Shown here: in pieces, positions 30,115-57,604 of the stretch | Layout: every line of letters begins with the position of its first letter | How positions within the stretch are numbered: position 1 is the stretch's first letter | Assembly (NCBI RefSeq): GCF_030813715.1 | Contig: NZ_JAUSUZ010000001.1 | Location: 496,001 to 560,000, forward strand | Reading direction: 5' to 3' | DNA length: 64,000 bases | From: Catenuloplanes indicus | GTDB lineage: Bacteria; Actinomycetota; Actinomycetes; Mycobacteriales; Micromonosporaceae | Made by a program: the position numbers and the translations under genes | The notes under the pieces: model-generated | Told to the model about the DNA's origin: nothing | The model's database searches: none | What the model saw: only the letters and a program-made list of their open reading frames with translations

Positions 30115-30132
30115 TGCCTATCCGCCTTCTAT
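30115..30132 (-). promoter_or_regulatory. SARP-type direct-repeat box upstream of the sbnA-NRPS operon
   Basis: On the minus strand: ATAGAAG GCGG ATAGGCA, two ATAG heptamers with an 11-base period, the spacing used by SARP regulators. It lies 52 bases before the GTG at 30063. Four more copies with the same geometry precede other operons of the cluster. Confidence 0.75.
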
Positions 30133-30145
30133 AAGCGCCGCGCGG

Positions 30146-30163
30146 ATAGAGGGGTGATAGGCG
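30146..30163 (+). promoter_or_regulatory. SARP-type direct-repeat box upstream of the VioC/AsnO-like gene
   Basis: On the plus strand: ATAGAGG GGTG ATAGGCG, with an 11-base period. It lies 50 bases before the ATG at 30214 and back-to-back with the minus-strand box 13 bases away, giving each divergent transcript its own site. Confidence 0.75.
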
Positions 30164-30213
30164 ACGGCGGGAAGCTGCGTGCGCCCGTCCCTTCGACCGA
30201 AAGCGACTTGACG

Positions 30214-31200
30214 ATGACGACGGCTCACACGGTCGACCGGGACTCCGGCGCCGGTCGACCAGCCCTGGACGACAACGACCGGGCCGCGCTCGCCCGGCTC
30301 GCCGACGACCTGGCCGCGACCGCGCCCGGCCGCACCGACGACCCGGACTGGGTCGCGGCGGCACGCCGGCTGTCCAACCGCCTCCCGCTGTCCCTGCTGG
30401 ACACGCTGCGGTCGTTCCGCGCCGATCCCGGCCCGGACGGTGTGCTGCTGCTGCGCGGCCTGCCGCTCGGCGCGGACCTGCCGCCCACGCCGAGCGTTCC
30501 CGAGTCGGTCGAGCGTCGCGCGGCACGGCCGTCGGCGCTGATCGCGCTGATCGGGATGGCGCTGGGCGAGCTGGCCGCGTACCGGGACGAGAAGTCCGGC
30601 GCGCTGGTGCAGAACGTGGTGCCGGTGCCGGGCCGGGAGGAGTCGCAGAGCAACGCCGGCTCGACGATGCTGGAGATGCACATCGAGAACGCGTTCCACC
30701 CGTACCGGCCGGACCTGGTCGGGCTGCTCTGCCTGCGCAACGACCACGACGACCTGGCCGGGCTGCGGACCGCGTCGATCCGGCGGGCGGTGGCGCTGCT
30801 GGACGCGCCGACGCTGGCGGTGCTGCGCGAGCCGCGGTTCCGGACGGCCGCGCCGCCGTCGTTCCACGACCTGGCCGGCGTGACCACGCCGCATCCGCTG
30901 CTGGCCGGCGCGCCGGAGGACCCGGACCTTCGGGTCGACTTCACCAGCACCGCGCCGGACGACCCGGCCGCGGAGAAGGCGATGAGCGTGCTCGGCGACG
31001 CGCTGTCCATGGTGGCCGAGACCGTGATCCTGCACTCCGGCGATTTGGCGTGGGTGGACAACCGGGTCACCATCCACGGGCGGACCGCGTTCACGCCGCG
31101 TTACGACGGGCGGGACCGGTGGCTGCACCGCTGCTTCGTGCACCTGGACCGCCGGCGGTCGCGGGGCGCGCGGCCGGGCGACGGCAGCGTCCTGATCTAG
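30214..31200 (+). CDS. VioC/AsnO-like Fe(II)/2-oxoglutarate hydroxylase
   Basis: 328 residues. It matches the clavaminate-synthase-like group that beta-hydroxylates free amino acids (VioC on Arg, AsnO on Asn): EMHIENAFHPYRPDLVGLLC with the H-x-E iron ligands near residue 154, then CLRNDHDD, and the distal His in VTIHGRTAF near residue 287. The ATG was chosen because family similarity begins soon after it; the open frame upstream is the antisense of sbnA. With Asn/Asp-like A domains in the cluster, free Asn is a plausible substrate, but this cannot be read from the sequence. It differs from the two SyrP-like enzymes, so two mechanistic classes of hydroxylase are present. Confidence 0.87.
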   Translation: MTTAHTVDRDSGAGRPALDDNDRAALARLADDLAATAPGRTDDPDWVAAARRLSNRLPLSLLDTLRSFRADPGPDGVLLLRGLPLGADLPPTPSVPESVERRAARPSALIALIGMALGELAAYRDEKSGALVQNVVPVPGREESQSNAGSTMLEMHIENAFHPYRPDLVGLLCLRNDHDDLAGLRTASIRRAVALLDAPTLAVLREPRFRTAAPPSFHDLAGVTTPHPLLAGAPEDPDLRVDFTSTAPDDPAAEKAMSVLGDALSMVAETVILHSGDLAWVDNRVTIHGRTAFTPRYDGRDRWLHRCFVHLDRRRSRGARPGDGSVLI

Positions 31201-31208
31201 AGCCCGGC

Positions 31209-31239
31209 GCCGTCGCGGGGCGCGCGGCCCCGCGACGGC
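31209..31239. terminator. Bidirectional terminator hairpin
   Basis: Perfect 13-bp arms GCCGTCGCGGGGC (31209-31221) and GCCCCGCGACGGC (31227-31239) around a 5-base loop. It exactly fills the space between the convergent hydroxylase and condensation-domain genes. Confidence 0.85.
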
Positions 31240-32520
31240 TCAGGCGGTCGCGCCGCCCCAGGCGAGCACGTCAGCGGGGGCCGGCACGGCCCGGACCCGG
31301 GTGTCCGGGGCGGTACCGGCGGTGTCGAGCATGCGCAGGTAGAGGTCGCCGAAGCGGGCGACGGTCGCGGCGTCGAACAGCTCGGTGTCGTAGCGGAGCA
31401 CCACGGTGAGGGAGTCCGGGCCGCGGCGCAGCTCCACGTTCAGGTCGAACTGGCCCTCCATGTGCGGCAGGTCGACGAGCTCCAGGCGCAGCCCGTCCCG
31501 GGTGATCCCGCCGGTGGCCAGGCCACGGACCGGTAGCCGGTCGACTGCCACCATCGTCACCGCGATCCGGAAGCCGGGCGGCGGGCCGGCCGGTTCCGGG
31601 CGGCGCAGGGCCGCGAACGCGCCGAGTACCTGGGCGTGCGCGTCCCGGACGGTGCCGGCGAGCGTGCTGTCCCGGTGCAGTCGCGCGGTCACCGGCACGG
31701 TCCGGACCAGATAGCCGACCAGATCCCGCAACCCCGGCACGGTACGGGTGGTGGCCGGGCAGCCGAGCGTGAACTCCTTCTGCCCGCCGGTGCGGTGCAC
31801 GGCCGCCTGGAACGCGCCGAGCAGCACCGCGAACGGCGTGACCCGCAGCCGCAGCGCGAGCGCGGTCAGCGCGGCCGCGGTCCCGGCGGCGACGGGCAGG
31901 GTCAGCGTGGCGCCGGCGAACCCGGGCCGGGCCGGGCGGGGGCGGTCGGTGGGCAGCTCGGCCGCGGGCGGCAGCACGGGCGGCGCGGGCCGGGCGCGGG
32001 CCAGCTCGTCGCGCACGTACCGGTCGAAGTCGATCGGCAGGTGCGGCCAGTCCGGCTGCCGGTCCTGGCGGAACGCGCCGTAGGCGTCGAGCAGGTCGCG
32101 GACCACCAGCCAGTGCGAGGTGGCGTCGCTGACGATGTGGTGGGTGACCACGATCAGCACCGCGTCGCCGGGTGCCCGGCGCAGCAGGGTCACGCGCAGT
32201 CCGGGCTCGGCGGTCAGCCGGAACGGTGCGCGCGCCGCCCGCTCGGCCGCGCCGGGCGCGTCGTCGCGGACGGTCAGCGGCGCCGGGCCGGGCGGGCCGA
32301 CCACCCGGTACGGCACGCCGTCTCGCTCACCGAAGCGGGAGCGCAGCACGTCGTGCCGGGCGGCGAGCGCGGCCGTGGCCCGCCGCAGCGCGGCCTCGTC
32401 CAGCGGCCCGCGGGCCGACAGTGCCACCACGATGTTGTACGCGGCGCTGTCCGGTGCGAGCCGGTGCAGCAGCCACATCGCCTCCTGGCCGGGGGTCAGG
32501 GGCAGCAGCTCGCCGGTCAA
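31240..32520 (-). CDS. Free-standing NRPS condensation domain
   Basis: 426 residues, one complete C domain and nothing else. It has the LTPGQEAMWLLHRL start, RHDVLRSRF, the catalytic HHIVSDATS near residue 130 (second His and Asp intact) and PLLVR-type later core segments. Start is TTG at 32520, overlapping the ACP stop as TTGA. Because it is co-translated with an ACP and acyl-activating enzymes, and NRPS-2 lacks an N-terminal C domain, I infer that it joins the acyl chain on the ACP to the first amino acid in trans. It could instead bridge two synthetases. Confidence 0.88.
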   Translation of the reverse strand: MTGELLPLTPGQEAMWLLHRLAPDSAAYNIVVALSARGPLDEAALRRATAALAARHDVLRSRFGERDGVPYRVVGPPGPAPLTVRDDAPGAAERAARAPFRLTAEPGLRVTLLRRAPGDAVLIVVTHHIVSDATSHWLVVRDLLDAYGAFRQDRQPDWPHLPIDFDRYVRDELARARPAPPVLPPAAELPTDRPRPARPGFAGATLTLPVAAGTAAALTALALRLRVTPFAVLLGAFQAAVHRTGGQKEFTLGCPATTRTVPGLRDLVGYLVRTVPVTARLHRDSTLAGTVRDAHAQVLGAFAALRRPEPAGPPPGFRIAVTMVAVDRLPVRGLATGGITRDGLRLELVDLPHMEGQFDLNVELRRGPDSLTVVLRYDTELFDAATVARFGDLYLRMLDTAGTAPDTRVRAVPAPADVLAWGGATA

Positions 32521-32780
32521 CGTGCCGTCAGCTCCTTCGCCAGGTGCGCGGCCATCGCGTTGACCGTGGGATGGTCCCAGGGCAGCGTGGGCTCGACGAT
32601 CAGCCCGAAACGCTCCTCCACGTCACCGCAGATGGTCAGCGCGTAGACCGAGTCCAGGCCCATCTCCAGCAGCGGCGTGTCCGGGTCGACCCGCTCGGCC
32701 GGCTGCTCGATGTAGAACGCGACCCGTTCGATCAGCCAGTCCCGGATGGTCACGGCCGGTTCCGTCGAGGTGTCCGTCAT
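32517..32780 (-). CDS. Acyl carrier protein (lipid-initiation module)
   Basis: 87 residues. The phosphopantetheine site is in LLEMGLDSVYALTICGDVE, with Ser near residue 43. Its neighbours are a FAAL-ACAD fusion, a second ACAD and a free C domain, which fits a carrier that holds the starter acyl chain during desaturation and transfer. It differs from the two ACPs of the polyketide operon (ADSL and VDSL motifs). Confidence 0.92.
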   Translation of the reverse strand: MTDTSTEPAVTIRDWLIERVAFYIEQPAERVDPDTPLLEMGLDSVYALTICGDVEERFGLIVEPTLPWDHPTVNAMAAHLAKELTAR

Positions 32781-32821
32781 GGTGCTCCTCCCCTGCCGGC
32801 GGTCGTGGCCGCCGGCGTGTG

Positions 32822-34516
32822 TCAGGTGGTCGCGCCCGCGAGCCGGGTCGCGCCGAGGTCCAGGGTGCGGGCGTCGGCGAGCCGGCGACGCAGCTCCGCG
32901 TGCAGCGGTTCGTGCAGCCCGGCCGGGGTGGGGCCGGCCGCCGTGCCGAGCCGGGCTGCGAGCCGGTGCAGCGCCGCCTCCAGCCAGGCCGGGTCGCGCA
33001 GGAACGCGGACTCCGCCTGCCGCCAGACGCCGACGCAGGCGGCGGCCGCGACGAGCGTGGCGTACCGGTCGGCGAGCGCGAACGCGGCCGGGCCGGCGAT
33101 CACGGTGCGGTCCCGGGGCGGCAGCTCCCGGCAGTCGTCCCGCAGCCGGCGCAGTTCCCCGGCGAACACCCGGCACAGTGCGGCGATGCGCGGGTCGGTG
33201 TCCGCGCGGGCGGCCTCGGCGGGCAGCACCGCGGTGATCCGGTCCCGGCCGCGGGCGGTGATCTCCAGCGCGTCGAAGCGCAGCGGTGGCAGCGCCGCGT
33301 CCAGGCGGAACACCTCGGCCGGGGCCGGTTCGGCGCCGGACCACGCCGCGGCGGCCATCCGGGGCAGCTGCGGGATGATCGTGGCCTGGCAGACCGCGGC
33401 GCCGGCGTGGGCGAGGCTCACCACCGGCAGGTCGCGCAGGTTCTTCTGGAACATCGCACAGTCGCCGTCGCGCAGGAACGAGCGGGCGCCGAGCAGTACG
33501 GCGAGCCGGTGGTTGGCGTCCTCCAGCAGCTTCGGCACCAGGTACTTGACCACGGCGGTGGGCACGCTGGTCTCGGCCGGGAGCACGTGCAGCGCGCGGG
33601 CGCCGACGGTGGCCAGGCAGTCCGCGACGAGCAGGTCGGTGAAGACCCCGGCCAGCACCGCCCGCGCGTGCGGCAGGTCGGCCACGGTACGCCCGTAGAG
33701 GCGCCGGCCGGCGGCGAAGCGCAGCACGATGCGCAGCTGGGTGTCCAGCACGCCGACCATCACGCCGGGCAGCACCGCGCGGGTGGTCTGGAAGGCGCGC
33801 AGCACGGTCTCCATCGCGCCGCCCTGTTCGCCGATCATCGCGGCGCGCGGGACCGGGCTGTCGCGGAACTCGACGCCGCCGAGCATGCATCCGCGTACCC
33901 CCGAGGTGTGGAACCTGGGCAGGTGGCGCAGCGTGCGGCTGGGCAGCGTGGTCAGGTCGACCATCAGGTGCGAGTGGCTGCGGCTGCCCGGGCGCAGCTC
34001 GGTGCGGGTGAACAGCACCAGCGTCTCGGCCCGCCCGACGTTGTTGATCAGTTCCTTGCGGCCGTCGACGAGCAGGCTGCTGCGGTACGGCCGGGCGGTC
34101 AGCTCCGCGCGGGAGAAGTCGTTGCCGTGCGCGAGTTCGGTGTAGCCGGCCGCGGCCCGTCCGCCGCCGAGCAGCAGGCCGGCGAGCCGGCGGCGCTGGT
34201 TGTCGTCGCCGGAGGTCCACACCGGCGCGGCCGCCACGAAGTTGGTGATGCCGTAGCCGAGTCCGAGCGTGCAGTCGCGGCGGAACACGGCGCGCACGGT
34301 GCGGGCCAGCCCGTCCGCGGTACGCAGCCGCCCGCCCAGCTCGGCCGGGACGAACTCGGCGTTCATCCCGAAGTCGGCCAGCGCCGTCTCGCCGTCGGCG
34401 AGCAGTTCGCCGCGCTCGTCCGCGGCCAGCACGGCCGCGGTGCCGAGCGGGTTGGCCGCGTCGTCCGGGTCGCCGAGCCGGGTCTCGAGATCGCTCAGGG
34501 TGCCGGCGGCGGTCAT
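32822..34516 (-). CDS. Acyl-CoA dehydrogenase-like flavoprotein
   Basis: 564 residues, start ATG at 34516 overlapping the upstream stop as ATGA. It shows an acyl-CoA dehydrogenase layout: N-terminal helices, a beta-domain segment with YTELAHGNDFSRAEL and VDGRKELINNVGRAETLVLF, RYGRTVADLPHARAVLAGVF-like helices and a long C-terminal helical extension. It resembles the ACADs of ramoplanin/enduracidin-type clusters that desaturate the acyl side chain. The usual catalytic Glu cannot be placed with confidence. The parallel domain in the next gene suggests two successive desaturations or a heteromer. Confidence 0.82.
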   Translation of the reverse strand: MTAAGTLSDLETRLGDPDDAANPLGTAAVLAADERGELLADGETALADFGMNAEFVPAELGGRLRTADGLARTVRAVFRRDCTLGLGYGITNFVAAAPVWTSGDDNQRRRLAGLLLGGGRAAAGYTELAHGNDFSRAELTARPYRSSLLVDGRKELINNVGRAETLVLFTRTELRPGSRSHSHLMVDLTTLPSRTLRHLPRFHTSGVRGCMLGGVEFRDSPVPRAAMIGEQGGAMETVLRAFQTTRAVLPGVMVGVLDTQLRIVLRFAAGRRLYGRTVADLPHARAVLAGVFTDLLVADCLATVGARALHVLPAETSVPTAVVKYLVPKLLEDANHRLAVLLGARSFLRDGDCAMFQKNLRDLPVVSLAHAGAAVCQATIIPQLPRMAAAAWSGAEPAPAEVFRLDAALPPLRFDALEITARGRDRITAVLPAEAARADTDPRIAALCRVFAGELRRLRDDCRELPPRDRTVIAGPAAFALADRYATLVAAAACVGVWRQAESAFLRDPAWLEAALHRLAARLGTAAGPTPAGLHEPLHAELRRRLADARTLDLGATRLAGATT

Positions 34517-37500
34517 GGCTGTTCCTCTCGGAGGCGGCACGTGAGCGGGGAGAACAGCAGCCCGTCGCGATGCTGGCCGAGCATCGGCGCGGCCAGGCCG
34601 GTCAGGTCGTCACCGGCCGGCTCACCGAGGTGCTGCAGCGCGCGGGTCAGGCAGGCGCGCACCCAGAGTTCGTCGCGCCACAGCAGCCCGGCCGGGCCGG
34701 TGGTCTCCGCGGGGGTGCGCCGCCACAGGTGCAGGCAGGCCGCGGCCGCCCAGATCCGGCAGTACCGCTCGGCGAGCGTGTAGGACGACTCGGGGACGTC
34801 CCGCGCGGAGACCGGTTGCGCGGCCATCTGCCGGTGCAGCCGGTCCGCGGCGCGATGCAGCCGCCCGGCGAGCGCGGCCAGCGGCGCGGGCAGCCCGTCG
34901 GCCGCCTCGGCGAGCGTCTGTACGACGCTCGCGCCGTGCCGGGCGACCAGCGACAGCCGGCCCGGGTCGAACGCCGGGACCGGGGTGTGCAGCCCGGCCG
35001 CGGCGTCCAGGCCGGCCCGGTCGGCCCGGCCGGCGCGGTACCCGGCCGCCAGAACCCCGAACTGGTTGATCACCATGTTCAGGTTGACCAGCGTGCTGCC
35101 GTCGAAGATGCCGACGATGTGGTGGTCGCGCCGGACCTTCTGGAACGTGCCGTCGGTCAGCAGTGAGCGGGCGCCGAGCACGCCGGCCAGCCGGTCGGTG
35201 ATGTCGTCGACCAGCGTCGGCACCAGGTACTTCACGACCGCGGACGCGATGCTCTGCTCGCCGGGCAGCGCGTGCAGGCTGCGGGTGGCGACCAGGGTGA
35301 CCGCCTCGGCGGTGAGCAGGTCGGCGTAGGCGGCGCACAGCGTGTGCCGGGCCTGGGGCAGGTCGGCCAGCACCCGGTCGTAGAGCCGGTGGCCGGTGGC
35401 GAAGTCCAGGGTGAGCCGCAGCGCGCGGTCGGCGGCGCCGAGCGACAGCCCGGCGCAGAGCGTGCGGGTCAGCTGCATGCCCTTGATGACCAGTTCCAGG
35501 CCCTCGCCGGGGCGGCCGACGAGGTCGGCGTGCCGGGCCGGGGCACCGGTGAACGTGATCCCACTGATGTCGGCGCCGCGGATGCCGTGCAGCCGGACCG
35601 CGGGCAGGTGGGTGACGGTGCCGGCGGGCAGCCGCCGTTTGTCCATCAGCAGCATGCTGAACCCGCGCGGGCCGCCGCCCGGGTCGGTGCGGGTGAGCAG
35701 GCAGACCACGTCGGACCGGGTGGCGTTGTTGATCAGCCACTTCTCGCCGTCGACCGTCCAGCCGTCCGCGGTGGGCCGGCCCTCGACCTCGCCGGCGAGC
35801 AGGTCGCTGCCGTGGTCGCGTTCGGTGAGTCCCCAGGAGACGACCGCGCCGGCCAGCACGTCGGCGGACATCCGGGCGGCCGCGGCCGGGTCGTCGGCCA
35901 CCCAGGCGGAGACCGCGCCGAGGAACGTCTTGCCGTGCGCGATCGCCACGGTCAGGTCACGGCGGGCCATCAGGCGCACCACTTGCAGCGTCTCCTCGAA
36001 ACTGCGGGCCGCGCCGCCGTGCGCGGCGGGCACGTACCAGGCGGGGATGCCGGCCTTGTCCAGCAGCGCGCAGACGTCGTCCGGGAAGTCCTCGCGGGCG
36101 TCGAGCTCCAGGCAGCGCGCCAGTGAGAACGTGTGCCCGGGCAGGTGCGGGCTGCCCAGCTCGCTCTCCAGCGTCTCGGTGAGCGCGTACGGCGGGTAGC
36201 CGGGCCGGGCCGGGTCCTCGAGGATCGGGTCGAGCTGCCCGGCGAGGTAGAGCTCGCGCATCCGGTTGCGGCGGATCTTGCCGCTGGTGGTCCGCTCGAT
36301 CCGGCCGGGCCGGACGAACACGACGGCCGCGGGGCTCGTCCCGGCGTGCGCGGTCAGCGTGGCGCGGACCGTGCCGGCCAGGGCCTCCAGGCCGGCGGCG
36401 GTCAGGTGCCGGCCGCGCGCCTCCTGCACGACGACGAGCCGTTCCGGTGGGCCCGGTACGGTGAACACGCAGGACGGCAGCGCGGCCAGCCGCTCGTCGG
36501 CCTCGGCGATGCGGCGTTCCAGGTCGTGCGGGTAAAGGTTGCGGCCGTGCAGGATCAGCGTCTCCTTGATCCGGCCGGTGACGTACAGCTCGCCGTCGAG
36601 CAGGGCGCCGAGGTCGCCGGTGCGCAGGAACGGGCCGTCGCCGGTGCCGGTGCGCGCGCCGAACGTGCGGGCGGTCTCGTCCGGGCGTCCCCAGTAGCCG
36701 CGGGCGACGCTGGCGCCGCTGACCCAGATCTCGCCGACCGTGCCGTCCGGGAGCACGGCCGCGGTGTCCGGGTCGACGATGCGTACCGTCAGGTCGTGCA
36801 CGGTACCGCTGCTGACCAGGGTGGTGGTGGTCTCGCCGGGCGCGGGCGGGCGCAGCCGGTGGCCGTGCAGCGACTCGGTGCCGACGTCGCGCAGCACCGG
36901 CGGGCGGCCGGTCCCGGCGCCGGAGACGTAGAGCGTGGTCTCGGCCAGGCCGTAGCCGGGCAGCAGCGCCTCGCGGCGGAAGCCGGCGGCGGCGAACCGG
37001 CGGGCGAACCGGTCGAGCGTGCCCGGGTCGATCGGCTCGGCGCCGTTGCAGGCGTCCCGCCACGTGCTCAGGTCCAGACCGGCCAGCTGGTCGTCGGCGA
37101 TCAGGCGGGCGCACAGGTCGTAGGCGAAGTTCGGCGCGCAGCTGACCGTGGCCCGGAACTCGCTGATCAGCTCCAGCCACAGCCGCGGACGTTTGAGGAA
37201 GTCCGTCGGGGCGGTGATGATCGTGCGCGCGCCCAGCAACAGCGGCGTGAGCAGCATCGCGATCAGGCCCATGTCGTGGTGACCGGGCAGCCAGCCGCAG
37301 AAGACGCTGTCGCGGTCCCAGCCGTGCCGGTCGCGCATGGTCTCGATGTTGTGCAGCAGGTTCGCCTGGCTGACCATGACGCCTTTGGGGTCGCTGGTCG
37401 AGCCGGAGGTGTACTGCAGCAGCGCGAGCGCGTCCGGGCCGGCCGCGGGCGGGTCCCAGGCGGCGGGGGTGAGCGTGTCGGTGGCGAGCGGTCGCGGGGC

Positions 37501-37899
37501 GACGTCCTCGGCGGCGAGCCGCGCCGTGACCAGGGGGAGCGTGGCGGCACCGGTGAGCACCACGGCGGCGGCGCAGTCCGCGGCGATGCCGGTGGCGCGG
37601 GCGGACTGCGGGCCGTACTGGCCGGGCAGCGGGACCGGGACCGGGACGACACCGGCGTAGAGGCAGCCGAGCATGGCCTCGACGAACGCGGGCCCGGCCG
37701 GGTACATCAGCAGCGCCCGGTCGCCCGGCGCGCAGTGCCGGGACAGCCACTCCCCCACGGTACGCGCGGCTCGGTCCAGCTCGCCGTAGGTGCGGGTGAC
37801 CCGGACCGGTCGCGCGGCCGGTCCGGTGTGGAACAGCAGCGCGTCGCGATCCGGCTCGGCGCCGGCGACGTGCCGGAAACGCTCGGCGTAGGTGGCCAT
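34513..37899 (-). CDS. Fatty-acyl-AMP ligase / acyl-CoA dehydrogenase fusion
   Basis: 1128 residues from the ATG at 37899 (GAGGAG upstream). Residues ~1-570 are a fatty-acyl-AMP ligase: LQYTSGSTSDPKGVMVSQAN near residue 160, LPGHHDMGLI, GYGLAETTLYVSG and RTGDLGALLDGELYVTGRIK, ending in TSGKIRRNRM. Residues ~590-1128 are an acyl-CoA dehydrogenase (WGLTERDHGSDLL, GEKWLINNATRSDVV, a GTFQKVRRDHHIVGIFDGS segment). Free FAALs load fatty acids onto ACPs, so the fused enzyme would activate, transfer and oxidise the chain on the downstream ACP. In related lipopeptide clusters these two activities are usually separate proteins. First gene of its operon, with a SARP-type box 35 bases upstream. Confidence 0.92.
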   Translation of the reverse strand: MATYAERFRHVAGAEPDRDALLFHTGPAARPVRVTRTYGELDRAARTVGEWLSRHCAPGDRALLMYPAGPAFVEAMLGCLYAGVVPVPVPLPGQYGPQSARATGIAADCAAAVVLTGAATLPLVTARLAAEDVAPRPLATDTLTPAAWDPPAAGPDALALLQYTSGSTSDPKGVMVSQANLLHNIETMRDRHGWDRDSVFCGWLPGHHDMGLIAMLLTPLLLGARTIITAPTDFLKRPRLWLELISEFRATVSCAPNFAYDLCARLIADDQLAGLDLSTWRDACNGAEPIDPGTLDRFARRFAAAGFRREALLPGYGLAETTLYVSGAGTGRPPVLRDVGTESLHGHRLRPPAPGETTTTLVSSGTVHDLTVRIVDPDTAAVLPDGTVGEIWVSGASVARGYWGRPDETARTFGARTGTGDGPFLRTGDLGALLDGELYVTGRIKETLILHGRNLYPHDLERRIAEADERLAALPSCVFTVPGPPERLVVVQEARGRHLTAAGLEALAGTVRATLTAHAGTSPAAVVFVRPGRIERTTSGKIRRNRMRELYLAGQLDPILEDPARPGYPPYALTETLESELGSPHLPGHTFSLARCLELDAREDFPDDVCALLDKAGIPAWYVPAAHGGAARSFEETLQVVRLMARRDLTVAIAHGKTFLGAVSAWVADDPAAAARMSADVLAGAVVSWGLTERDHGSDLLAGEVEGRPTADGWTVDGEKWLINNATRSDVVCLLTRTDPGGGPRGFSMLLMDKRRLPAGTVTHLPAVRLHGIRGADISGITFTGAPARHADLVGRPGEGLELVIKGMQLTRTLCAGLSLGAADRALRLTLDFATGHRLYDRVLADLPQARHTLCAAYADLLTAEAVTLVATRSLHALPGEQSIASAVVKYLVPTLVDDITDRLAGVLGARSLLTDGTFQKVRRDHHIVGIFDGSTLVNLNMVINQFGVLAAGYRAGRADRAGLDAAAGLHTPVPAFDPGRLSLVARHGASVVQTLAEAADGLPAPLAALAGRLHRAADRLHRQMAAQPVSARDVPESSYTLAERYCRIWAAAACLHLWRRTPAETTGPAGLLWRDELWVRACLTRALQHLGEPAGDDLTGLAAPMLGQHRDGLLFSPLTCRLREEQP

Positions 37900-37933
37900 G
37901 CGACTCCTCTCTCCGTGCACAGCGTGTCGTCCC

Positions 37934-37951
37934 CGGCTATCCGCGCCCTAT
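37934..37951 (-). promoter_or_regulatory. SARP-type direct-repeat box upstream of the FAAL operon
   Basis: On the minus strand: ATAGGGC GCGG ATAGCCG, with an 11-base period. It lies between the isomerase stop at 37960 and the FAAL-ACAD start at 37899. The lipid module can therefore be transcribed independently of the polyketide operon that precedes it on the same strand. Confidence 0.72.
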
Positions 37952-37959
37952 AGCGGCGC

Positions 37960-38637: not shown

Positions 38638-38654
38638 CCGGGCTCCTTGCCGGT

Positions 38655-49928: not shown

Positions 49929-50023
49929 GTCGCCTCCGCTGCGATCTCGGCGCGGCGGCGGGCATGCTGCTCGCCCGGTCGCTGCCGATTCCTGTGGTCC
50001 GGTGGATCGCAGCGTGCCGGGCG

Positions 50024-50041
50024 GCGCTATGAGATTCCTAT
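50024..50041 (-). promoter_or_regulatory. SARP-type direct-repeat box upstream of the polyketide operon
   Basis: On the minus strand: ATAGGAA TCTC ATAGCGC, with an 11-base period. It is placed between the response-regulator stop (50051) and the first ACP (49928), so the polyketide operon has its own promoter and is not just read through from the two-component genes. Confidence 0.72.
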
Positions 50042-50050
50042 CAGCTCGGC

Positions 50051-50710
50051 TCAGCGGCGCAGATACGCCAGCACGGCGAGCACCCGGCGGTGGTCGTCGC
50101 CGTCCGCGCGGATCTCCAGCTTGGCGAGGATGCTGCCGATGTGCTTGCCGACCGCGGCCTCGGTGACGCTCAGCGCCCGCGCGATGCCGGCGTTGGACCG
50201 GCCCTCGGCCATCAGCCCGAGCACCTCCCGCTCGCGCGGGGTGAGCCGGTCGACCGGGTCGCGGTAGCGGCGCATCACCATCCGGACCACGTCCGGGTCG
50301 ATGACGGTGGTGCCGGCGGCGACCCCGGCGAGCGCGTCCATGAAGTCCCGCACGTCGCCGATGCGGTCCTTGAGCAGGTAGCCGACGCCGCCGTCGCCGG
50401 CGGAGTCGAGCAGTTCCATCGCGTAGGTCTGCTCGACGTACTGGCTGAGCACCAGCACGGCCAGGCCGGGGTGGCGCCCGCGCAGCGTGACCGCGGCCCG
50501 CAGCCCCTCGTCGGTGAAGGTGGGCGGCATCCGCACGTCCGCGATCACCAGGTCCGGACGGTGCGCCTCGACCTCCGTGATCAGGTCCGCGGCGTTGCCG
50601 ACGGTGGCGACGACGTCGTGGCCGAACCGGCCGAGCAGGTGCGCCACGCCCATCCGGACGAGCACGCCGTCCTCGGCGATGATCACGCGTAGGGAGCCGT
50701 CGGTCGGCAA
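50051..50710 (-). CDS. NarL/LuxR-type response regulator
   Basis: 219 residues with the TTG at 50710, chosen because GGAGGT lies four bases upstream and no ATG/GTG precedes the conserved RVIIAEDGVLVRMG start. The receiver has its phospho-Asp in LVIADVRMPP near residue 57 and Lys in YLLKDRIGD. The C-terminal LuxR helix-turn-helix (about 150-215) reads LTPREREVLGLMAEGRSNAG, then IARALSVTEAAVGKHIGSIL. It overlaps the kinase gene by 28 bases. It forms a DesK/DesR-type pair and probably controls the divergent ABC transporter. Confidence 0.93.
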   Translation of the reverse strand: MPTDGSLRVIIAEDGVLVRMGVAHLLGRFGHDVVATVGNAADLITEVEAHRPDLVIADVRMPPTFTDEGLRAAVTLRGRHPGLAVLVLSQYVEQTYAMELLDSAGDGGVGYLLKDRIGDVRDFMDALAGVAAGTTVIDPDVVRMVMRRYRDPVDRLTPREREVLGLMAEGRSNAGIARALSVTEAAVGKHIGSILAKLEIRADGDDHRRVLAVLAYLRR

Positions 50711-51966
50711 GGGACCTCCAGTCGGAGCAGCGTCGGCCCGCCGCGCGGGCTGGACAGGATGACGGTGCCGTCCAGCACGGCCAGCCGGTCGGCCAGCCCG
50801 GCCAGCCCGGTGCCCGCGCCCGCGTCCGCGCCGCCGACGCCGTCGTCGCGCACCTCGACGACGAGCCGGCCGGCGTCGATCCGGCCGTCCACAGTAGCCG
50901 AACCGGCCCCGCTGTGCCGGGCCACGTTCGCCAGTGCCTCGCAGACCGCGAAGTAGGCGGTCGACTCCACCGCGGACGGCAGCCGGTCCGGAAGATCGAA
51001 ACGGACCTGCACGGGTACGGCGGACCGGTCGGCCACCGCGCCGACCGCGGCCGGCAGCCCGCGGTCGGTGAGCACCTGCGGGTGGATGCCGCGGATCAGC
51101 TCGCGGATCTCCTCCAGCGCGAGCCGCGCCTCGTCCCGCGCCTGCGCGACCAGCGCGCCCACCTCGTCCGGCTCGCAGACCTCGGCCAGGCCGAGGGTCA
51201 TGGACAGTGACAGCAGCCGCTGCTGCGCGCCGTCGTGCAGGTCCCGCTCGATGCGCCGGCGTTCGGCCTCGAACGCGTCGACCAGGCGGGCGCGGGAGCG
51301 GGACAGCTCCTGCACCCGCTCGGTCAGCTCGACCTGGGTGCTGCCCAGCAACCGGCGGCTGAGCACCGCGCGGGCCGCGGCCAGGCCGGTCAGCACGTAT
51401 CCGCCGGGGACGAGCAGGACCAGGCCGGCCACCGCCGTCGCCCACGCGGGTCCCCAGGAGACGATCTGCCACGTCTTGAGGACCTTGACGCCCTCCTCGT
51501 CGGCGAACGCGAGCAGCAGCGGGGTGACCAGCAGCGCCAGCGGGACGACCAGGCCGCCGAGCAGCGCGGTGACCTCGACCAGCCACAGCACCAGCGCGCT
51601 GAGCATCAGGTGGCCCAGCTCGCGCCAGGTGCCCGGTTCCCGCCACCGGGTCCGCAGCCAGCACCACAGCCCGGGCTCGGCCGGCACCCGGTGCGGGCCG
51701 TCGATGGGGGCGCTGTCGACGAGCGGCAGCAGCCGCCGCTCGATCACGGCGGCCGGCACGCCGGCCAGGGTCACACCGCACAGCAGCGGTACGCCGACGA
51801 GCAGCACGACGGTGGCGGTGCCGAGCAGGAACAGGCTGAGCACGACGATCAGCCCGATCACGCCGAGCGTGGCGGTGGCCGTCAGGTAGGCGGCGGAGCG
51901 CCAGGGCCACGCGGTGAGCAGCAGATCGCGCCGCCGGAGTGCGGCCCAGGCGGTTGGCGTGTGCAC
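50683..51966 (-). CDS. DesK-type sensor histidine kinase
   Basis: 427 residues from a GTG at 51966. The N-terminal ~200 residues carry about four to five membrane spans with little extracellular loop, as in kinases that sense membrane stress. The HisKA_3 box RDLHDGAQQRLLSLSMTLGL lies near residue 240. The HATPase has EALANVARHSGAG and DDGVGGADAGAGTGLAGLADR near residue 385. The partner regulator follows directly. The divergent MacB-like transporter suggests a module that senses and removes a cell-envelope-active compound, possibly the product itself. Confidence 0.92.
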   Translation of the reverse strand: MHTPTAWAALRRRDLLLTAWPWRSAAYLTATATLGVIGLIVVLSLFLLGTATVVLLVGVPLLCGVTLAGVPAAVIERRLLPLVDSAPIDGPHRVPAEPGLWCWLRTRWREPGTWRELGHLMLSALVLWLVEVTALLGGLVVPLALLVTPLLLAFADEEGVKVLKTWQIVSWGPAWATAVAGLVLLVPGGYVLTGLAAARAVLSRRLLGSTQVELTERVQELSRSRARLVDAFEAERRRIERDLHDGAQQRLLSLSMTLGLAEVCEPDEVGALVAQARDEARLALEEIRELIRGIHPQVLTDRGLPAAVGAVADRSAVPVQVRFDLPDRLPSAVESTAYFAVCEALANVARHSGAGSATVDGRIDAGRLVVEVRDDGVGGADAGAGTGLAGLADRLAVLDGTVILSSPRGGPTLLRLEVPCRPTAPYA

Positions 51967-52098: not shown

Positions 52099-52851
52099 GT
52101 GGAATCCGCTGCCCTTCGCACCCCCGCCGTCCGTCTCGCCGCGGTGTCCAAGACATACGGCACCGGCTCCGCCGCCGTACCCGCGCTGCGGGACGTGAGC
52201 GTGGAGTTCGCCGCCGGCGCGCTCACCGCGATCATGGGGCCGTCCGGGTCCGGCAAGTCCACGCTGCTCCAGGTGGCGGCCGGGCTGGACCGGGCGGACA
52301 CCGGCGAGATCGTGGTCGGCGAGGTGGAGCTGTCCCGGCTCAGCGAGACCCGGCTGACGCTGCTGCGCCGTACCCACATCGGGTTCGTCTTCCAGGCGTT
52401 CAACCTGCTGCCGGCGCTGACCGCGGAGCAGAACGTGAGCCTGCCGCTGCGCCTGGCCGGGAAGCGGCCGGGACGCGCCGCGGTCCGGGACGTGCTGGCG
52501 CGGGTCGGCCTCGCCGACCGGGCCCGGCACCGGCCGGCCGAGATGTCCGGCGGCCAGCAGCAGCGAGTGGCGATCGCCCGCGCGCTGGTCACCCGCCCGG
52601 CCGTGCTCTTCGCCGACGAGCCGACCGGCGCGCTGGACAGCGTGACCGGCCGGGAGGTGCTGGTCATGCTGCGTGAGCTGGTCGACCGGGAACGGCAGAC
52701 GATCATCATGGTCACCCACGACCCGGTCGCCGCGTCGTACGCGGACCGGGTGGTGTTCTTCGCCGACGGCCGGCCCGCCGGTGAACTGCTGCGGCCCACC
52801 GCCGAGGCGGTCGCCGCGCGGATGACCGGCAGTGGGGCGCTGGCGTGCTGA
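52099..52851 (+). CDS. ABC transporter ATP-binding protein (MacB/LolD-like)
   Basis: 250 residues from a GTG at 52099. Walker A GPSGSGKSTLL near residue 48, Q-loop in FVFQAFNLLPALT (the FQxFNLLP signature of the MacB/LolD/FtsE branch), ABC signature MSGGQQQRVAIARAL, Walker B VLFADEPTGALDS and the His loop MVTHD. Transporters of this branch move substrates out of the membrane or transmit force across it. It is coupled with the permease by a 7-base overlap. Confidence 0.95.
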   Translation: MESAALRTPAVRLAAVSKTYGTGSAAVPALRDVSVEFAAGALTAIMGPSGSGKSTLLQVAAGLDRADTGEIVVGEVELSRLSETRLTLLRRTHIGFVFQAFNLLPALTAEQNVSLPLRLAGKRPGRAAVRDVLARVGLADRARHRPAEMSGGQQQRVAIARALVTRPAVLFADEPTGALDSVTGREVLVMLRELVDRERQTIIMVTHDPVAASYADRVVFFADGRPAGELLRPTAEAVAARMTGSGALAC

Positions 52852-55325
52852 TCGTGGCACTGCAGACGCTGCGCAGCCGGTGGGCGGGCTTCCTCGGCAC
52901 GTTCGTCGCGCTCGCGCTCGGCGTCGCACTGCTGACCGCGACCGGTCTGGTGCTGAACGCGACGGTCAGCGCGCCGGCCCGGGCGCCGCAGCGGTACGCG
53001 GCGGTGCCGACCGTGGTGACCGGCTACGACCAGCTGCGGGTGGAGACCACCAACGGCGTGGACAGTCAGCCGCTGGGCGTGCCGTCCGGCGTGCCCGCCG
53101 AGGTGATCGACGGCGTGCGGCGCCTCGATCCCGGCGCGGTGCTCGACCGCACGTTCTACGCGCAGCTGGTGCGGGACGGGCGGGGCGGCGGCGCGCGCAC
53201 CGGGCACCCGTGGCCGGCGGCGGCGCTCACGCCGTACCAGCTGGTCGACGGCACCGCGCCGGGTGACGACGGCGAGATCGTGGCCGGCACGGACGCGGGC
53301 GTGGCCGTGGGCGCGTCCGTGCCGGTCCTGACCGTCGCCGGCGTCCGCGACTACCGGGTGTCCGGCCTGGTCCGGCCGGTGCCGTTCGAATCGGCGCTGT
53401 TCTTCAGCGAGGCGGAGGCCGCGCGGATCTCGCCGCGGGTCGACGCGGTGGCCACCTCGGCCGGCGCGGACGCGGTGACCGGCGTGGTGGGCGCGACCGG
53501 CGGGCGGGTGCTGCACGGCGACGGCCGGCGGGAGGCCGACCCGGACCGGGCCGCCGACGCGGAGGCGCTGGTCACGGTGAACGCGATCGTGGGCACCTCG
53601 GCCGGCATCGCCGGGTTCGTGGCGATCTTCGTGGTCGCGTCGACGTTCTCGTTCGCGGTGGTGCAGCGGCGGCGGGAGTTCGGGTTGCTGCGGGTGGTCG
53701 GGCTGACGCCCGGCCAGGTGCGCCGCATGGTCTACACGGAGGCGCTGGCCGTCGGGCTGGTGGCGGCCGCGGCCGGGGTGTGGCTGGGCCGGGCCGGCGC
53801 GGCACCGCTCGGCCGGTGGATGACCGGCCTGGGCCTGGCGCCGCCGTGGTTCACGGTCGGGCCCGCGACCTGGCCGATGATCACGGCGTTCGCGATCGGT
53901 GTGCTGGTGGCGCTGGCCGGGGTGGCGGCGGCGTCCGCGCGGGCCGGGCGGGTGCGCCCGGTGGAGGCGCTGCGGGACGCGGCGGTCGAGGGCCGGGCGA
54001 TGACGCCGGTGCGGTGGCTGGCCGGTCTGCTGTTCCTTTCCGGCGGTCTGTACCTGATGCTGTCCGCCGCGGCCACCGATCCGGAGAGCGTGGTCGGCCG
54101 CAAGTGGTACACGACCGTACCGATGCTGCTCCTCGTCGCTTTCGGGCTTCTCGCCCCGGCGCTGGTGCCGCCGGTGGTCCGCCTGGTCGGGCTGCCGTTG
54201 CGCGCGATGCGCGGCGCGGGTGCGATGGTGGTCCGGCAGAGCGCGCTGACCGCGGCACGCCGGACCGCGTCCACGGCCGCGCCGGTGATGCTCGCGGTCG
54301 GGCTGACCGGGTCGCTGCTGGGCGCGACCGCCACCATCGACGCGGCGAAGGCGACCGAGCGGCGGGAGCGGATCGCCGCGGACTTCGTGGTGCTGCCGCG
54401 CGACACGCCGGGGCTCAGCGAGACGGCCGTGGCCCGGGTCCGGGCGGTGCCCGGTGCGGACGTGCTGGCGTCCCGGGCGACCACGCTGTACGTCGTGGAG
54501 GGTGGCGAGACGTTGCTGCGGCAGTCCGCCGAGGCGGTCGACCCGGGCGCGCTGGGCCGGGTGGCGCTGCCGCCGGTCGCCGCCGGATCGCTGGCCGGAC
54601 TCGACGACGGCGCGATCGCGGTGAACGCGGAGTGGGATCGCGCGGTCGGCGACGAGGTGGCGGTGTGGCGGGCGGACGGCAGCGCCGCGACGCTGCGGGT
54701 GGTGGCCGTGCTCGACGCCGGCATCTCCGGCGCGGGCGTGTACGTGACCCCGGCCAACGCCCCCGCCGGGCTGACCGGCGCGGTGTACGTCAAGGCCCAC
54801 CCCGGCACCGACACCGGCGCGCTTCGCCGGGCACTGGCCGCGGCGACCGACGGGCTCGCCGCCTCGGTCACGCCGATGCCGGAGTGGGCGGCCGCCACGG
54901 CGGCGAAGAACCGGCAGACCACGGTGCGCGGTCTGCAGGCGGTGCTCGGCGTGACGCTGCTGTACACCGCGATCGCGATCGTGAACACGTTGCTGATGGC
55001 GGTGGCCGGCCGGTCACGGGACCTGGCGGTGTTCCGGCTGTCCGGTGCGACGCGAGCGCAGGCGCTGCGCACGATCGCCGGTGAGTCGCTGGTCGTGGTG
55101 GCGGTCGGCGTGGCGCTGGCGGCGGGCGCCGCGGCGCTCAACCTGGCCGGCATGTGGCTGTCGGTGGTCCGACTCGTCGGGTTCACGTCGATCGCCGTGC
55201 CGTGGGCCGCGGTGGCGGCGGTGGCCGGGATCTGCGCGGTGCTGGCGCTGGTCGCGTCGATCATGCCCGCGTACTTTGCGCTGGTCCGGCGGCGTGCGAT
55301 TAGCGCCGCGGCGGCCCGGGAGTAA
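52845..55325 (+). CDS. ABC transporter permease with two FtsX domains
   Basis: 826 residues from a GTG at 52845. It has an N-terminal span (about residues 15-38) and a large extracytoplasmic domain to about 240. A first FtsX block covers about 245-370, followed by further spans to about 440 with the linker loop after the second group. A second extracytoplasmic domain and a second FtsX block complete it (spans near 700-815). A single polypeptide with two FtsX modules is the form seen in actinobacterial exporters next to peptide-antibiotic clusters. Role in self-resistance or export is inferred from the context. Confidence 0.92.
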   Translation: MLIVALQTLRSRWAGFLGTFVALALGVALLTATGLVLNATVSAPARAPQRYAAVPTVVTGYDQLRVETTNGVDSQPLGVPSGVPAEVIDGVRRLDPGAVLDRTFYAQLVRDGRGGGARTGHPWPAAALTPYQLVDGTAPGDDGEIVAGTDAGVAVGASVPVLTVAGVRDYRVSGLVRPVPFESALFFSEAEAARISPRVDAVATSAGADAVTGVVGATGGRVLHGDGRREADPDRAADAEALVTVNAIVGTSAGIAGFVAIFVVASTFSFAVVQRRREFGLLRVVGLTPGQVRRMVYTEALAVGLVAAAAGVWLGRAGAAPLGRWMTGLGLAPPWFTVGPATWPMITAFAIGVLVALAGVAAASARAGRVRPVEALRDAAVEGRAMTPVRWLAGLLFLSGGLYLMLSAAATDPESVVGRKWYTTVPMLLLVAFGLLAPALVPPVVRLVGLPLRAMRGAGAMVVRQSALTAARRTASTAAPVMLAVGLTGSLLGATATIDAAKATERRERIAADFVVLPRDTPGLSETAVARVRAVPGADVLASRATTLYVVEGGETLLRQSAEAVDPGALGRVALPPVAAGSLAGLDDGAIAVNAEWDRAVGDEVAVWRADGSAATLRVVAVLDAGISGAGVYVTPANAPAGLTGAVYVKAHPGTDTGALRRALAAATDGLAASVTPMPEWAAATAAKNRQTTVRGLQAVLGVTLLYTAIAIVNTLLMAVAGRSRDLAVFRLSGATRAQALRTIAGESLVVVAVGVALAAGAAALNLAGMWLSVVRLVGFTSIAVPWAAVAAVAGICAVLALVASIMPAYFALVRRRAISAAAARE

Positions 55326-55403: not shown

Positions 55404-55432
55404 TTGACACGCAGATGAAATCTGCATTAGCT
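55404..55432 (+). promoter_or_regulatory. Promoter with an inverted repeat in its spacer, upstream of the SARP gene
   Basis: TTGACA at 55404-55409 and TTAGCT at 55427-55432 are separated by 17 bases, a good sigma-70-type layout. The spacer contains a perfect inverted repeat, GCAGAT-GAA-ATCTGC (55411-55425), which would place a dimeric repressor directly on the promoter. The surrounding DNA is much less GC-rich than the rest of the window. It is the most likely promoter of the SARP gene and would give a leader of about 250 bases. Confidence 0.65.
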
Positions 55433-55691
55433 TCCACCACGGCGCACGACGATGGGGGGGAATCGATCATGGCCACGGTGGATAGCTGACGACCAGCACC
55501 TCCACAGCTCGTTCACAACATTCACTCAGGTCTTCATCCAGGTGCTCGGCGGACGATGCCGTCCCCGTCCTGAAGACGGCCTGACCTGCTCAGCAGTGCG
55601 AACCGCGCCGACCATGACGGGCGGCGCGTCGTCATGCCCGCACACGTGAATGAACAGCGGAAGAGCAGGGCTCATACGCCACGGGGGAAAG
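55433..55691 (+). other. Long untranslated leader of the SARP gene
   Basis: About 260 bases without a credible gene. A six-codon reading frame (ATG at 55469, stop at 55487-55489) follows a GGGGGGG run and could be a leader peptide, but it is too short to judge. A 65-codon frame over 55452-55649 has no family likeness and I do not call it. No SARP-type ATAG direct repeat is present, so the regulator does not appear to autoregulate through that site. Confidence 0.4.
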
Positions 55692-57536
55692 ATGCAGTTT
55701 CGCATTCTTGGACCGGTCGAAGCATGGGACAGAGGAATCGAGATCCCGCTCGGCGGGCATAAACAGAGAACGGTTCTGGCCGCTCTGCTATTGGCTCGCG
55801 GTCGCATTCTCTCCGATGATTACCTGAGCGATATCCTCTGGGGCGACAATGCGCCCAGCACCGCTACCGCGCAGATCTACAATTACGTCTCCCGGTTGCG
55901 CAAGCAGCTGGAACCCTCGGTGCGGATCATCCGGCAACGCCCCGGATACCTGCTGCGGATGGGCTCGGCGGACTTCGACTACGACACCTTCCGGCGGGTG
56001 GCGCAGACCGGGCATCACGCGTTGCGCCGCGGCGAGCACCAGGAGGCCGCCCGGCACCTGCGGGCCGCACTCGCCCTGTGGCGCGGCCGGCCGCTGATGA
56101 ACGTCACGGACCTGCTCGCCGACGCGGAACTGCCGGCGCTGCAGGAGAGCCGGCTGGCCGCGGCCAAGGACCGCATCGACGCCGACCTCGCGCTCGGGCA
56201 GCACGCCGAGCTCGTGCCGGAACTGTCCGCGCTGCTCGCCGAGCACCCGCTCCAGGAGTGCCTGCGCATCCAGCTGATGACCGCGCTGTACCGGGCCGGC
56301 CGCCAGGCGGAGGCGCTGGACGTCTACCACGACGGGCGGCTGACCCTGGCCGACAGCCTCGGCGTGGAGCCGAGCCCGGCGCTGTTCGCCACGTACAAGG
56401 CGATCCTCGACGGTGACCTGGAGCTCGTGCCGCCACCGGAGCGGGCGCAGGTGACGGTCCGGCCGGTCATCACACCGCGGATGCTGCCGGCCGACATCAC
56501 CGACTTCACCGCCCGCGACGCCGAGGTGTCGGCGATCCGCGCGTTCCTGGGCAGCCCGCCCTCGGGCAGCCATCCCAGCGTGCTGCTGATCACCGGCCTG
56601 CCCGGCGTCGGCAAGTCCGCGATCGGCACGCACGGCGTGCACCGGTGCCGCGACCGGTTCCCGGACGGGGAGCTGCACGCGGATCTGCGCGGTTCCACCG
56701 ACGCGCCGGTCGATCCCGGCGTCGTCCTCGGCTGGTTCCTGCGAGGGCTCGGCGTGGCACCGGACGACATCCCGGACAGCACGCCGGAGCGGCAGCAGCT
56801 CTACCGCAGCCAGCTGGCCGGCCGGCGGCTGGTGGTGGTGCTGGACGACGCGGCCGACTCCGCGCAGGTGCGGCCGCTGCTGCCCGGTGGCGCGACCTGC
56901 CGGGTGATCGTGACCAGCAGGTCGTACCCGGGAGTGGTCGAGGCCAGCCGGTCACTGGAGATCCGGCCGTGGAGCACCGAGGCGTCGCTGAGCCTGCTGG
57001 CCGACATCATCAGTCACGACCGGGTGGCCCGCCGCCCGCACGCGGCACGCCGGATCGCCGACCTGTGCGCCGGGCTGCCGATGGCGGTGCGCATCCTCGG
57101 CGCCCGGCTGGCCGCCAAGCCGCACCTGGCCATCGACAAGCTGGCCCGGCGGGTCGCCTGTGACCCGCTGCGGGAGCTGCGGCTCGGCCCGGTCACCGTG
57201 CGCGGCAACCTCGAGGCGATGTACGACCGGCTGGACGAGCCGCACCGACGGGCACTGCGCCGGCTGGCGGCGCAGGAGAGCCCGGCGATCGCGGCGGACA
57301 CCGCGGCGCACCTGCTCGGCCTGACCGAGCACCGCGCCGAGGAGATCCTGGAGGACCTGATCGACGCGCGGCTGCTCCACACCACCGGCGGCGAGGGGGG
57401 CCGGCTGCTGGTCGGCATGCACCCGTTCGTGCGTCAGCTGGCCCGGCACGTGAGCGCGCCGGCCGACCCGGCCCGGCGGGAGACGCCGGTCGCGCGCGCA
57501 CCCGAACGCGTGCTGCTGCGCCCCGCGCTCGCCTGA
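55692..57536 (+). CDS. SARP-family pathway-specific activator with NB-ARC ATPase domain
   Basis: 614 residues from the ATG at 55692 (GGGGGAAAG upstream); an in-frame start 14 codons earlier is less likely because the family begins MxFRILGPVE. Residues ~1-95 are the OmpR-like winged helix (MQFRILGPVEAWDRGIEIPL). Residues ~97-245 are the bacterial transcriptional activation domain. Residues ~270-560 are an NB-ARC-type ATPase with P-loop GLPGVGKSAIG near 303 and Walker B RLVVVLDDAAD near 378. The TPR tail of AfsR-size proteins is missing, giving a medium-length SARP. It is the only pathway-type activator visible and is the obvious candidate to bind the five ATAG direct-repeat boxes at the cluster's operon heads. 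Confidence 0.93.
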   Translation: MQFRILGPVEAWDRGIEIPLGGHKQRTVLAALLLARGRILSDDYLSDILWGDNAPSTATAQIYNYVSRLRKQLEPSVRIIRQRPGYLLRMGSADFDYDTFRRVAQTGHHALRRGEHQEAARHLRAALALWRGRPLMNVTDLLADAELPALQESRLAAAKDRIDADLALGQHAELVPELSALLAEHPLQECLRIQLMTALYRAGRQAEALDVYHDGRLTLADSLGVEPSPALFATYKAILDGDLELVPPPERAQVTVRPVITPRMLPADITDFTARDAEVSAIRAFLGSPPSGSHPSVLLITGLPGVGKSAIGTHGVHRCRDRFPDGELHADLRGSTDAPVDPGVVLGWFLRGLGVAPDDIPDSTPERQQLYRSQLAGRRLVVVLDDAADSAQVRPLLPGGATCRVIVTSRSYPGVVEASRSLEIRPWSTEASLSLLADIISHDRVARRPHAARRIADLCAGLPMAVRILGARLAAKPHLAIDKLARRVACDPLRELRLGPVTVRGNLEAMYDRLDEPHRRALRRLAAQESPAIAADTAAHLLGLTEHRAEEILEDLIDARLLHTTGGEGGRLLVGMHPFVRQLARHVSAPADPARRETPVARAPERVLLRPALA

Positions 57537-57546
57537 CCGGCGGCGC

Positions 57547-57583
57547 GACGCCGCCCGGGTCCGCCACCGGTCCGGGCGGCGTC
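57547..57583 (+). terminator. Terminator hairpin after the SARP gene
   Basis: Perfect 12-bp arms GACGCCGCCCGG (57547-57558) and CCGGGCGGCGTC (57572-57583), starting 10 bases after the stop codon. It insulates NRPS-3 from SARP transcription and ends 3 bases before the next regulatory box. Confidence 0.8.
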
Positions 57584-57586
57584 CTG

Positions 57587-57604
57587 ATAGGGGCGTCATA
57601 GCGG
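57587..57604 (+). promoter_or_regulatory. SARP-type direct-repeat box upstream of NRPS-3
   Basis: On the plus strand: ATAGGGG CGTC ATAGCGG, with an 11-base period, 48 bases before the NRPS-3 ATG. Its distance to the start codon nearly equals that of the two boxes at 30.1 kb (50 and 52 bases). Confidence 0.75.

Follow-up and report, generated by a model that had tools for sequence, protein, structure and literature searches.

Words of the TCGAG type are among the known operator repeats of the Streptomyces antibiotic regulatory proteins (SARPs). According to the accessible parts of the papers cited in this text, SARP operators consist of direct repeats spaced by 11 or 22 bp, and 8 bp separate the final repeat from the -10 element (CACTGT in the case of afsS; PMC10936776). 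In AfsR from Streptomyces coelicolor, a winged helix, a BTAD and a nucleotide-binding domain are combined, and its target, the afs box of afsS, comprises two 11-bp direct repeats over the -35 region and a weak -10. OtcR, the SARP of the oxytetracycline cluster, serves five promoters of its own cluster through repeats 11 bp apart and 8 bp from the -10 (PMC4393881). A circuit of this architecture is encoded in a 64,000-nucleotide stretch of the genome of Catenuloplanes indicus (contig NZ_JAUSUZ010000001.1, positions 496,001 to 560,000), referred to here as the window; coordinates are positions within it, and "window-equivalent" denotes the same numbering carried past its end. The window contains a SARP gene at 55692-57536 (+) and six boxes of the type ATAG-N7-ATAG, each followed by a -10-like hexamer. 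Very probably, these six boxes are the operators of this SARP, which would switch on six gene sets jointly, a reading of binding and activation drawn from sequence and its comparison between genomes.

Described SARP systems and their operator words

Despite the shared architecture, the described systems differ from this locus in the word that is recognized. AfsR is a global regulator with tetratricopeptide repeats (TPRs) and reads CGTT(T/C)ATCGNN, in contrast to the cluster-bound protein of 614 aa and the TATAG-type repeats found here. OtcR uses repeats such as CGGTCGAAG (oxyI) instead of TATAG (PMC4393881). The SARP-LAL regulators PimR, SanG and PolR likewise bind heptamers with 4-bp spacers, arranged in 22-bp double boxes, but their heptamer is CGGCAAG and the PimR operator does not overlap the -35 (PMC5930380). 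CdaR, FdmR1, CpkO, Atr32 and Fzm_SARP resemble the window SARP in size (about 600 aa) and in the combination of a SARP with a nucleotide-binding domain, and CdaR and Atr32 also reside in clusters for nonribosomal peptide synthetases (NRPSs) (PMC10972967, PMC12692060); for Fzm_SARP, in contrast, motifs like those of RedD and PapR are predicted. The window boxes, which read TATAG or ATAG, match none of the known words compared, that is, the TCGAG type, CGGCAAG, CGGTCGAAG and the afs box. In the accessible part of the review PMC10972967, "ATAG" does not occur as the start of a word, and no TATAG-type SARP operator was found in the searchable literature, a scope that ends at subscription papers and at sequences given only in figures. 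As far as this search reaches, the suggestion made in a first-pass annotation of the window that the element may be new for the family stands: the architecture of the circuit is known, whereas the recognition word and the SARP clade attached to it look new.

Place, geometry and rarity of the boxes

Each of the boxes in the window lies directly 5' of a gene and points at it. Box 1 (30102-30133, -; tATAG-N7-ATAG-N10-CACGAT) is located upstream of an sbnA-like gene with a GTG start at 30063, and box 2 (30145-30176, +; gATAG-N7-ATAG-N10-GAAGCT), divergent from box 1, precedes a gene starting with ATG at 30213. Box 3 (37921-37952, -; tATAG-N7-ATAG-N10-CACGCT) stands before the gene for a fatty-acyl-AMP ligase (FAAL)/acyl-CoA dehydrogenase fusion (ATG 37899), box 4 (50011-50042, -; gATAG-N7-ATAG-N10-CACGCT) before the acyl carrier protein (ACP) and ketosynthase genes (ATG 49928), and box 5 (57586-57617, +; gATAG-N7-ATAG-N10-AAGGCT) lies 50 bp 3' of the SARP stop codon, ahead of an NRPS gene (ATG 57652). 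Box 6 (9124-9155, -; tATGG-N7-ATAG-N10-CATCCT), upstream of the TauD-TauD-thioesterase genes (ATG 9087, Shine-Dalgarno GGAGGAA), overlaps the 3' end of a gene of the major facilitator superfamily (MFS). In all five exact boxes, a -10-like nAnnnT is found at one fixed offset, 10 bases after the second ATAG, and it is absent from this position in the other four exact ATAG pairs of the genome. With the heptamer taken as NATAGNN and nAnnnT as the -10, the 3' repeat is separated from the -10 by exactly 8 bp in these five boxes and in the sixth, and the repeats have the 11-bp period of SARP operators. A good -35 at the usual distance is missing from the window promoters, as judged by eye on the sequence. 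The first-pass annotation had listed the five exact boxes with correct coordinates and strands and in the orientation of the downstream operon; its count of five operon heads overlooked the box at 9124-9155, with which the promoters number six. The distance of 48-52 bases to the start codon that it gave for three boxes is close to the 47-51 nt measured from box end to start, the other two distances being 34 nt (box at 37934) and 95 nt to the ACP start (box at 50024). Its proposal of (R)3 and (S)3 flanks behind the two ATAG words proved inexact, as GGC violates the former at 37934 and GCA the latter at 30115; ATAG alone is common to the boxes.

The boxes are concentrated in the cluster. ATAG-N7-ATAG occurs five times in the window, compared with a mean of 0.02 and a maximum of 1 in dinucleotide shuffles (n = 100), and among all spacers of 0-30 bp between two ATAG words N7 alone recurs (five times, as against one N9, one N18 and no other). 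In the genome, which consists of two contigs with 9,247,015 bases, the exact pattern is found nine times: five copies lie within 27.5 kb in the window, one 13 kb past its end and three far off; read backwards, the bare pattern yields 12 matches. Many equally good sites elsewhere in the genome would have spoken against the "self-contained" regulon of the first-pass annotation; the three far copies lack a -10 at the fixed distance, and the genome scan supports such a regulon, with six promoters instead of five. If one mismatch is allowed in the box-plus-10 pattern, 10 genomic matches contrast with 25 for the reversed pattern, so that single-mismatch matches by themselves mean little. Two of the far pairs, at G000:C1 1421945 and 1810654, have other SARPs of this genome at a distance of about 18 kb (1440500 and 1828884). 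They lack a -10 at the fixed distance and possibly reflect chance. The pair past the window end (window-equivalent 76914-76928, +; G000:C1:572914), upstream of a run of genes for a pyridoxal phosphate-dependent decarboxylase, methylaspartate mutase E and an aminotransferase, was rejected as a member of the regulon because it has no -10 at the fixed distance.

A position matrix was derived from 21 non-redundant boxes near SARP homologues in other genomes only and scanned over 124 kb of the genome. The best score (31.1) was obtained for TATGGAAACGGTATAG ending at 9155 (-), which is box 6, with CATCCT in the right place. The five exact boxes scored 25.2, 23.4, 22.6, 21.3 and 13.5, and six randomised sequences (first-order Markov) reached maxima of 10.6-15.4. 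The score of 13.5, the weakest of the six, belongs to box 2 (30146, +) and falls within these randomised maxima, so that the case for this box is made by its exact repeats and its -10, not by the matrix. One-mismatch boxes are also present upstream of TauD orthologues in eight relative loci (L079, L081, L083, L098, L100, L102, L104 and L107).

Boxes and SARPs in related genomes

The boxes are conserved before orthologous genes. In 14 other genomes, the sbnA-like orthologue has a box no further than 100 bp upstream of its first possible start, in 13 of them with a -10. Ketosynthase orthologues in six other genomes are preceded by a box at 402-493 bp; in the window, box 4 is 336 bp away from its own ketosynthase gene, with the ACP gene in between. 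Among the g23 genomes read, 7 of 12 have a one-mismatch box 21-55 bp after the SARP frame, a place equivalent to that of box 5.

Box and SARP are also linked when either is taken as the starting point. When 354 genomes from the family to which the window belongs were searched at E 1e-110 or better and three candidates were scored in each, the SARPs listed, which are part of all SARPs, comprised 23 in 23 genomes with 47-51% identity to the window SARP and 37 with 40-46%. The strict pattern, that is, both ATAG words plus the -10, was found within 30 kb of the SARP for 17 of the former and for one of the latter (G076; Fisher 4e-9, a value that is overstated, as is the second Fisher value below, because genomes within a genus are not independent). 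In four further genomes (G333, G334, G335 and G337, all g34) the strict pattern lies 55-58 kb from the SARP upstream of the orthologous ketosynthase genes, and in G332 it precedes these genes on a contig other than that of the SARP. When ATAG pairs in the SARP-homologue loci were picked regardless of a -10, 31 of 35 had nAnnnT at the same offset; after removal of near-copies the figure was 17 of 21, with 2 of 21 for the next best offset. Loci L109-L128 were left out of this statistic because they had been chosen by a pattern already requiring the -10. One-mismatch boxes with a -10 number 27 in 668 kb of SARP-homologue loci as against 2 in 393 kb of control loci. Across the family, the strict pattern gives 142 matches (hand count) in 90 of the 354 genomes and 15 places with at least two matches within about 65 kb, and the reversed pattern 73 matches in 65 genomes and one such place, which means that about half of the single matches, but not the clusters, may be due to chance. 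Starting from 25 places among the 142 strict matches (15 multi-box clusters or recurring words and 10 hand-picked singles), a SARP was encountered within about 10 kb in 13, compared with 1 of 20 hand-picked reversed-pattern control places (Fisher 9e-4). This motif-first test is uneven, with some stretches off-centre and the G094 SARP taken from a later whole-genome search, and its count leaves out a 51-bit match in G066 and the SARP of G102 at 12 kb. A scan of genome contigs for related loci returned three distant SARPs, of which little use was made. In one relative locus (L111; G018:C1:6370941, -), an ATAG pair without the standard -10 lies 115 bp before the first possible SARP start, suggesting possible self-control there.

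A tree was built from 78 SARP domains, of which 37 carried the label box and 41 no box, and it links the boxes to one clade. This clade comprises 33 SARPs with support of 99/92, and 31 of them have boxes, eight of which (G014, G018, G032, G042, G071, G076, G090 and G094) entered via the motif search, G076 also by similarity, and consequently provide no test of the link. Of the clade members obtained by SARP similarity together with the window SARP, 23 of 24 carry the box label; five of these 23 (g34) owe it solely to sites that are distant, as in four g34 SARPs at 55-58 kb, or on another contig, as in G332. The two unboxed members are G173 and G141, the boxes of the latter genome residing on contigs other than that of this SARP. 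The box label requires 7 changes on the tree as opposed to 26 in shuffles. Six more distant SARPs near ATAG boxes (G044, G101, G102, G105, G106 and G150) all entered through the motif. The clade covers seven genera (g1, g4, g9, g22, g23, g30 and g34). Among its members are open frames of 289-366 aa, which are too short to hold an NB-ARC domain besides; the box thus follows the DNA-binding part of the SARP. Taken with the -10 spacing and the boxes before orthologous operons, this co-occurrence of box and SARP subclade over seven genera supports the control by the SARP that the first-pass annotation had proposed.

The SARP and its proposed mode of action

The assignment of 55692-57536 (+) as a SARP gene is borne out by Pfam domains. 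The product shows an OmpR-type winged helix (PF00486, 34 bits, cut-off 26.2) followed by a BTAD (PF03704, 147.3 bits, cut-off 22.1), the order of the SARP family, and an NB-ARC domain (PF00931, 44.3 bits); with 614 aa from its likely start, chosen from the GGGGGAAAG preceding it, and no TPR among the Pfam matches, it belongs to the medium class. It matches the AfsR structures (phmmer, best E 2.8e-46). Its NCBIfam NF053617 score of 455.5 bits is below the cut-off of 1430, so that it does not qualify as an AfsR equivalog. Alignment to AfsR (8k60, 8hvr) shows S91, R92, R94 and K95 (numbered by hand) to be identical in the window SARP. In AfsR, R92 contacts T-38 and T-27, T88 contacts the template base at -36 and -25, and binding is abolished if the contacted T is changed to A (PMC10936776). 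Assuming that the -10 hexamer occupies -12 to -7, positions -38 and -27 coincide with the T of TATAG; in the non-redundant relatives this T is retained in 16 of 21 first and 18 of 21 second repeats.

Two protomers of the SARP would bind side by side, as a cooperative dimer, to the two 11-bp-spaced TATAG-type repeats, read in the register NATAGNN with 8 bp left to the -10. With AfsR as the analogy, the SARP may take the role of a good -35 by carrying sigma region 4, and would recruit RNA polymerase to the six promoters, in which the -35 is poor and the -10 (nAnnnT) weak. The genes predicted to be jointly activated are those for diaminopropionate and NRPSs, the divergent gene, the lipid-loading genes, the type II polyketide synthase (PKS)-like genes, the TauD oxygenase genes and the downstream NRPS, and the nucleotide state of the NB-ARC part may gate the activity of the SARP. 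The repeat-binding half of this scheme is suggested by sequence and comparison, whereas the half concerning sigma region 4 and NB-ARC gating is modelled on AfsR.

Besides the limits already attached to the Fisher values, the single matches and the motif-derived clade members, several points weigh against the assignment of the boxes to this SARP. The matrix scan found no box upstream of the SARP gene itself, which places the SARP's own switch elsewhere; the cluster's two-component pair is a candidate. AfsR T88 corresponds to N in the window SARP, and among the six window boxes the T that AfsR contacts is present in only three of the first repeats and one of the second, an argument against the idea that the AfsR contact was simply carried over. 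An exchange of T88 for N as a specificity switch was rejected, as both residues are found within the box clade. In G173, where a clade SARP is present, the 60 kb read contain no box with a -10 at up to one mismatch, and BLAST in this genome detected no counterpart of the G246 box region. Conversely, G231 and G221 (genome completeness 87%) have a box and no clade-like SARP, the best being 43% and 42% identical, respectively, and in G141 and G041 clade-like SARPs and boxes are on different contigs. Finally, SARP, boxes and cluster descend as one family, so that their linkage partly reflects shared ancestry and is not proof of binding.

Other possible readings of the boxes

That the boxes are read by the response regulator of the cluster's two-component pair (50051-50692) instead of the SARP is very improbable. 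Homologues of this regulator are present in nine fetched loci (L077, L079, L081, L083, L109, L113, L117, L125 and L127), and G231 combines a box and a two-component pair in the absence of a clade-like SARP. However, in 10 g23 genomes with boxes near a clade SARP, the homologues (E 1e-50 or better) are located on other contigs in five, all drafts, for which linkage of regulator and SARP is less firmly excluded, and in the remaining five at distances from the SARP exceeding 300 kb; on this evidence the regulator was rejected as box reader. Its output domain, moreover, is of the GerE/LuxR type, whereas direct repeats with an 11-bp period 8 bp before a -10 constitute the pattern described for SARPs in the accessible literature.

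A second SARP of 978 aa (window-equivalent 83032-85968, -) is a very improbable reader. The exact ATAG pair at window-equivalent 76914 lies about 6 kb from it, and a 15-mer identical to this pair occurs near more distant SARPs in G105 and G106, but the pair has no -10 at the fixed distance. The protein was rejected on two grounds, its identity of only 36% with the window SARP and its position outside the box clade. There is similarly little reason to expect that the window SARP binds the boxes and represses the cluster. Atr32, a medium SARP of the atratumycin NRPS cluster, is listed as a repressor in the accessible part of PMC10972967; the geometry in the window, however, equals that of the AfsR activation complex (PMC10936776), and no good -35 is seen by eye in its promoters. 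Chance occurrence of AT-rich words in a genome with 75% GC, to which the four of nine exact copies outside the window and the more numerous reversed matches (12 for the bare pattern; 25 against 10 for the one-mismatch box-plus-10) might point, has a negligible probability and was rejected for the box set as a whole in view of five copies in the window against 0.02 expected from shuffles, the fixed -10 distance and the conservation before orthologous genes.

Genes under the boxes

The gene sets that the SARP would control through these boxes look together like a lipopeptide cluster, with operon limits drawn from gene spacing. Box 1 heads a putative operon (9140-30063, -) for sbnA-like and sbnB-like 2,3-diaminopropionate enzymes, both exceeding the NCBIfam cut-off, two NRPSs, a carbamoyltransferase and an MFS exporter; one NRPS (11306-22972, -) ends in a C-terminal beta-lactamase-fold domain, perhaps a cyclase of the penicillin-binding-protein type. 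For the gene under box 2 (30213-31202, +), there is no Pfam or NCBIfam match at E 0.001, and in the relative loci L075-L128 no homologue reached E 1e-15. Box 3 precedes the lipid-loading genes (31240-37899, -); besides the fusion of a fatty-acyl-AMP ligase-like part with an acyl-CoA dehydrogenase, these encode a second dehydrogenase, an ACP and a condensation domain. Under box 4 (37960-49928, -), the type II PKS-like genes encode an ACP, ketosynthases, short-chain dehydrogenases/reductases (SDRs), FabA-like dehydratases and thioesterase-like and DsbA-like proteins. The NRPS gene under box 5 (57652-64000, +) continues past the window end, and box 6 precedes the genes for two TauD-family oxygenases and a thioesterase (6416-9087, -). 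The two-component pair (50051-51966, -) consists of the LuxR/GerE-type regulator and a sensor kinase. Between it and the SARP gene, an ABC transporter with an ATPase and an FtsX-type permease (52099-55325, +) is encoded; it has no box, its homologues are found in several relative loci, and it may confer self-resistance or be linked to a signal.

Significance

It seems rather more plausible than otherwise that a SARP clade has kept its own word, T-A-T-A/G-G and then N-A-T-A-G in 11-bp phase with a fixed -10, through at least seven genera and in short and NB-ARC-bearing SARPs alike, with the box acting as a portable label on the operons of a cluster family that shares diaminopropionate genes, some of these operons more than 50 kb from the regulator. 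For this SARP subclade, the boxes provide a testable operator code that would help to assign operons to a cluster, to select the gene whose overexpression should wake it and to choose the bases for mutation. The code would reach distant genes, such as the ketosynthase genes of g34, 55-58 kb from the SARP, and the TauD genes of the window. It also offers a natural comparison with AfsR as to how SARPs choose their DNA word. If true, the portable label could be used to draw the borders of clusters and to pick the regulator with which silent ones might be woken.

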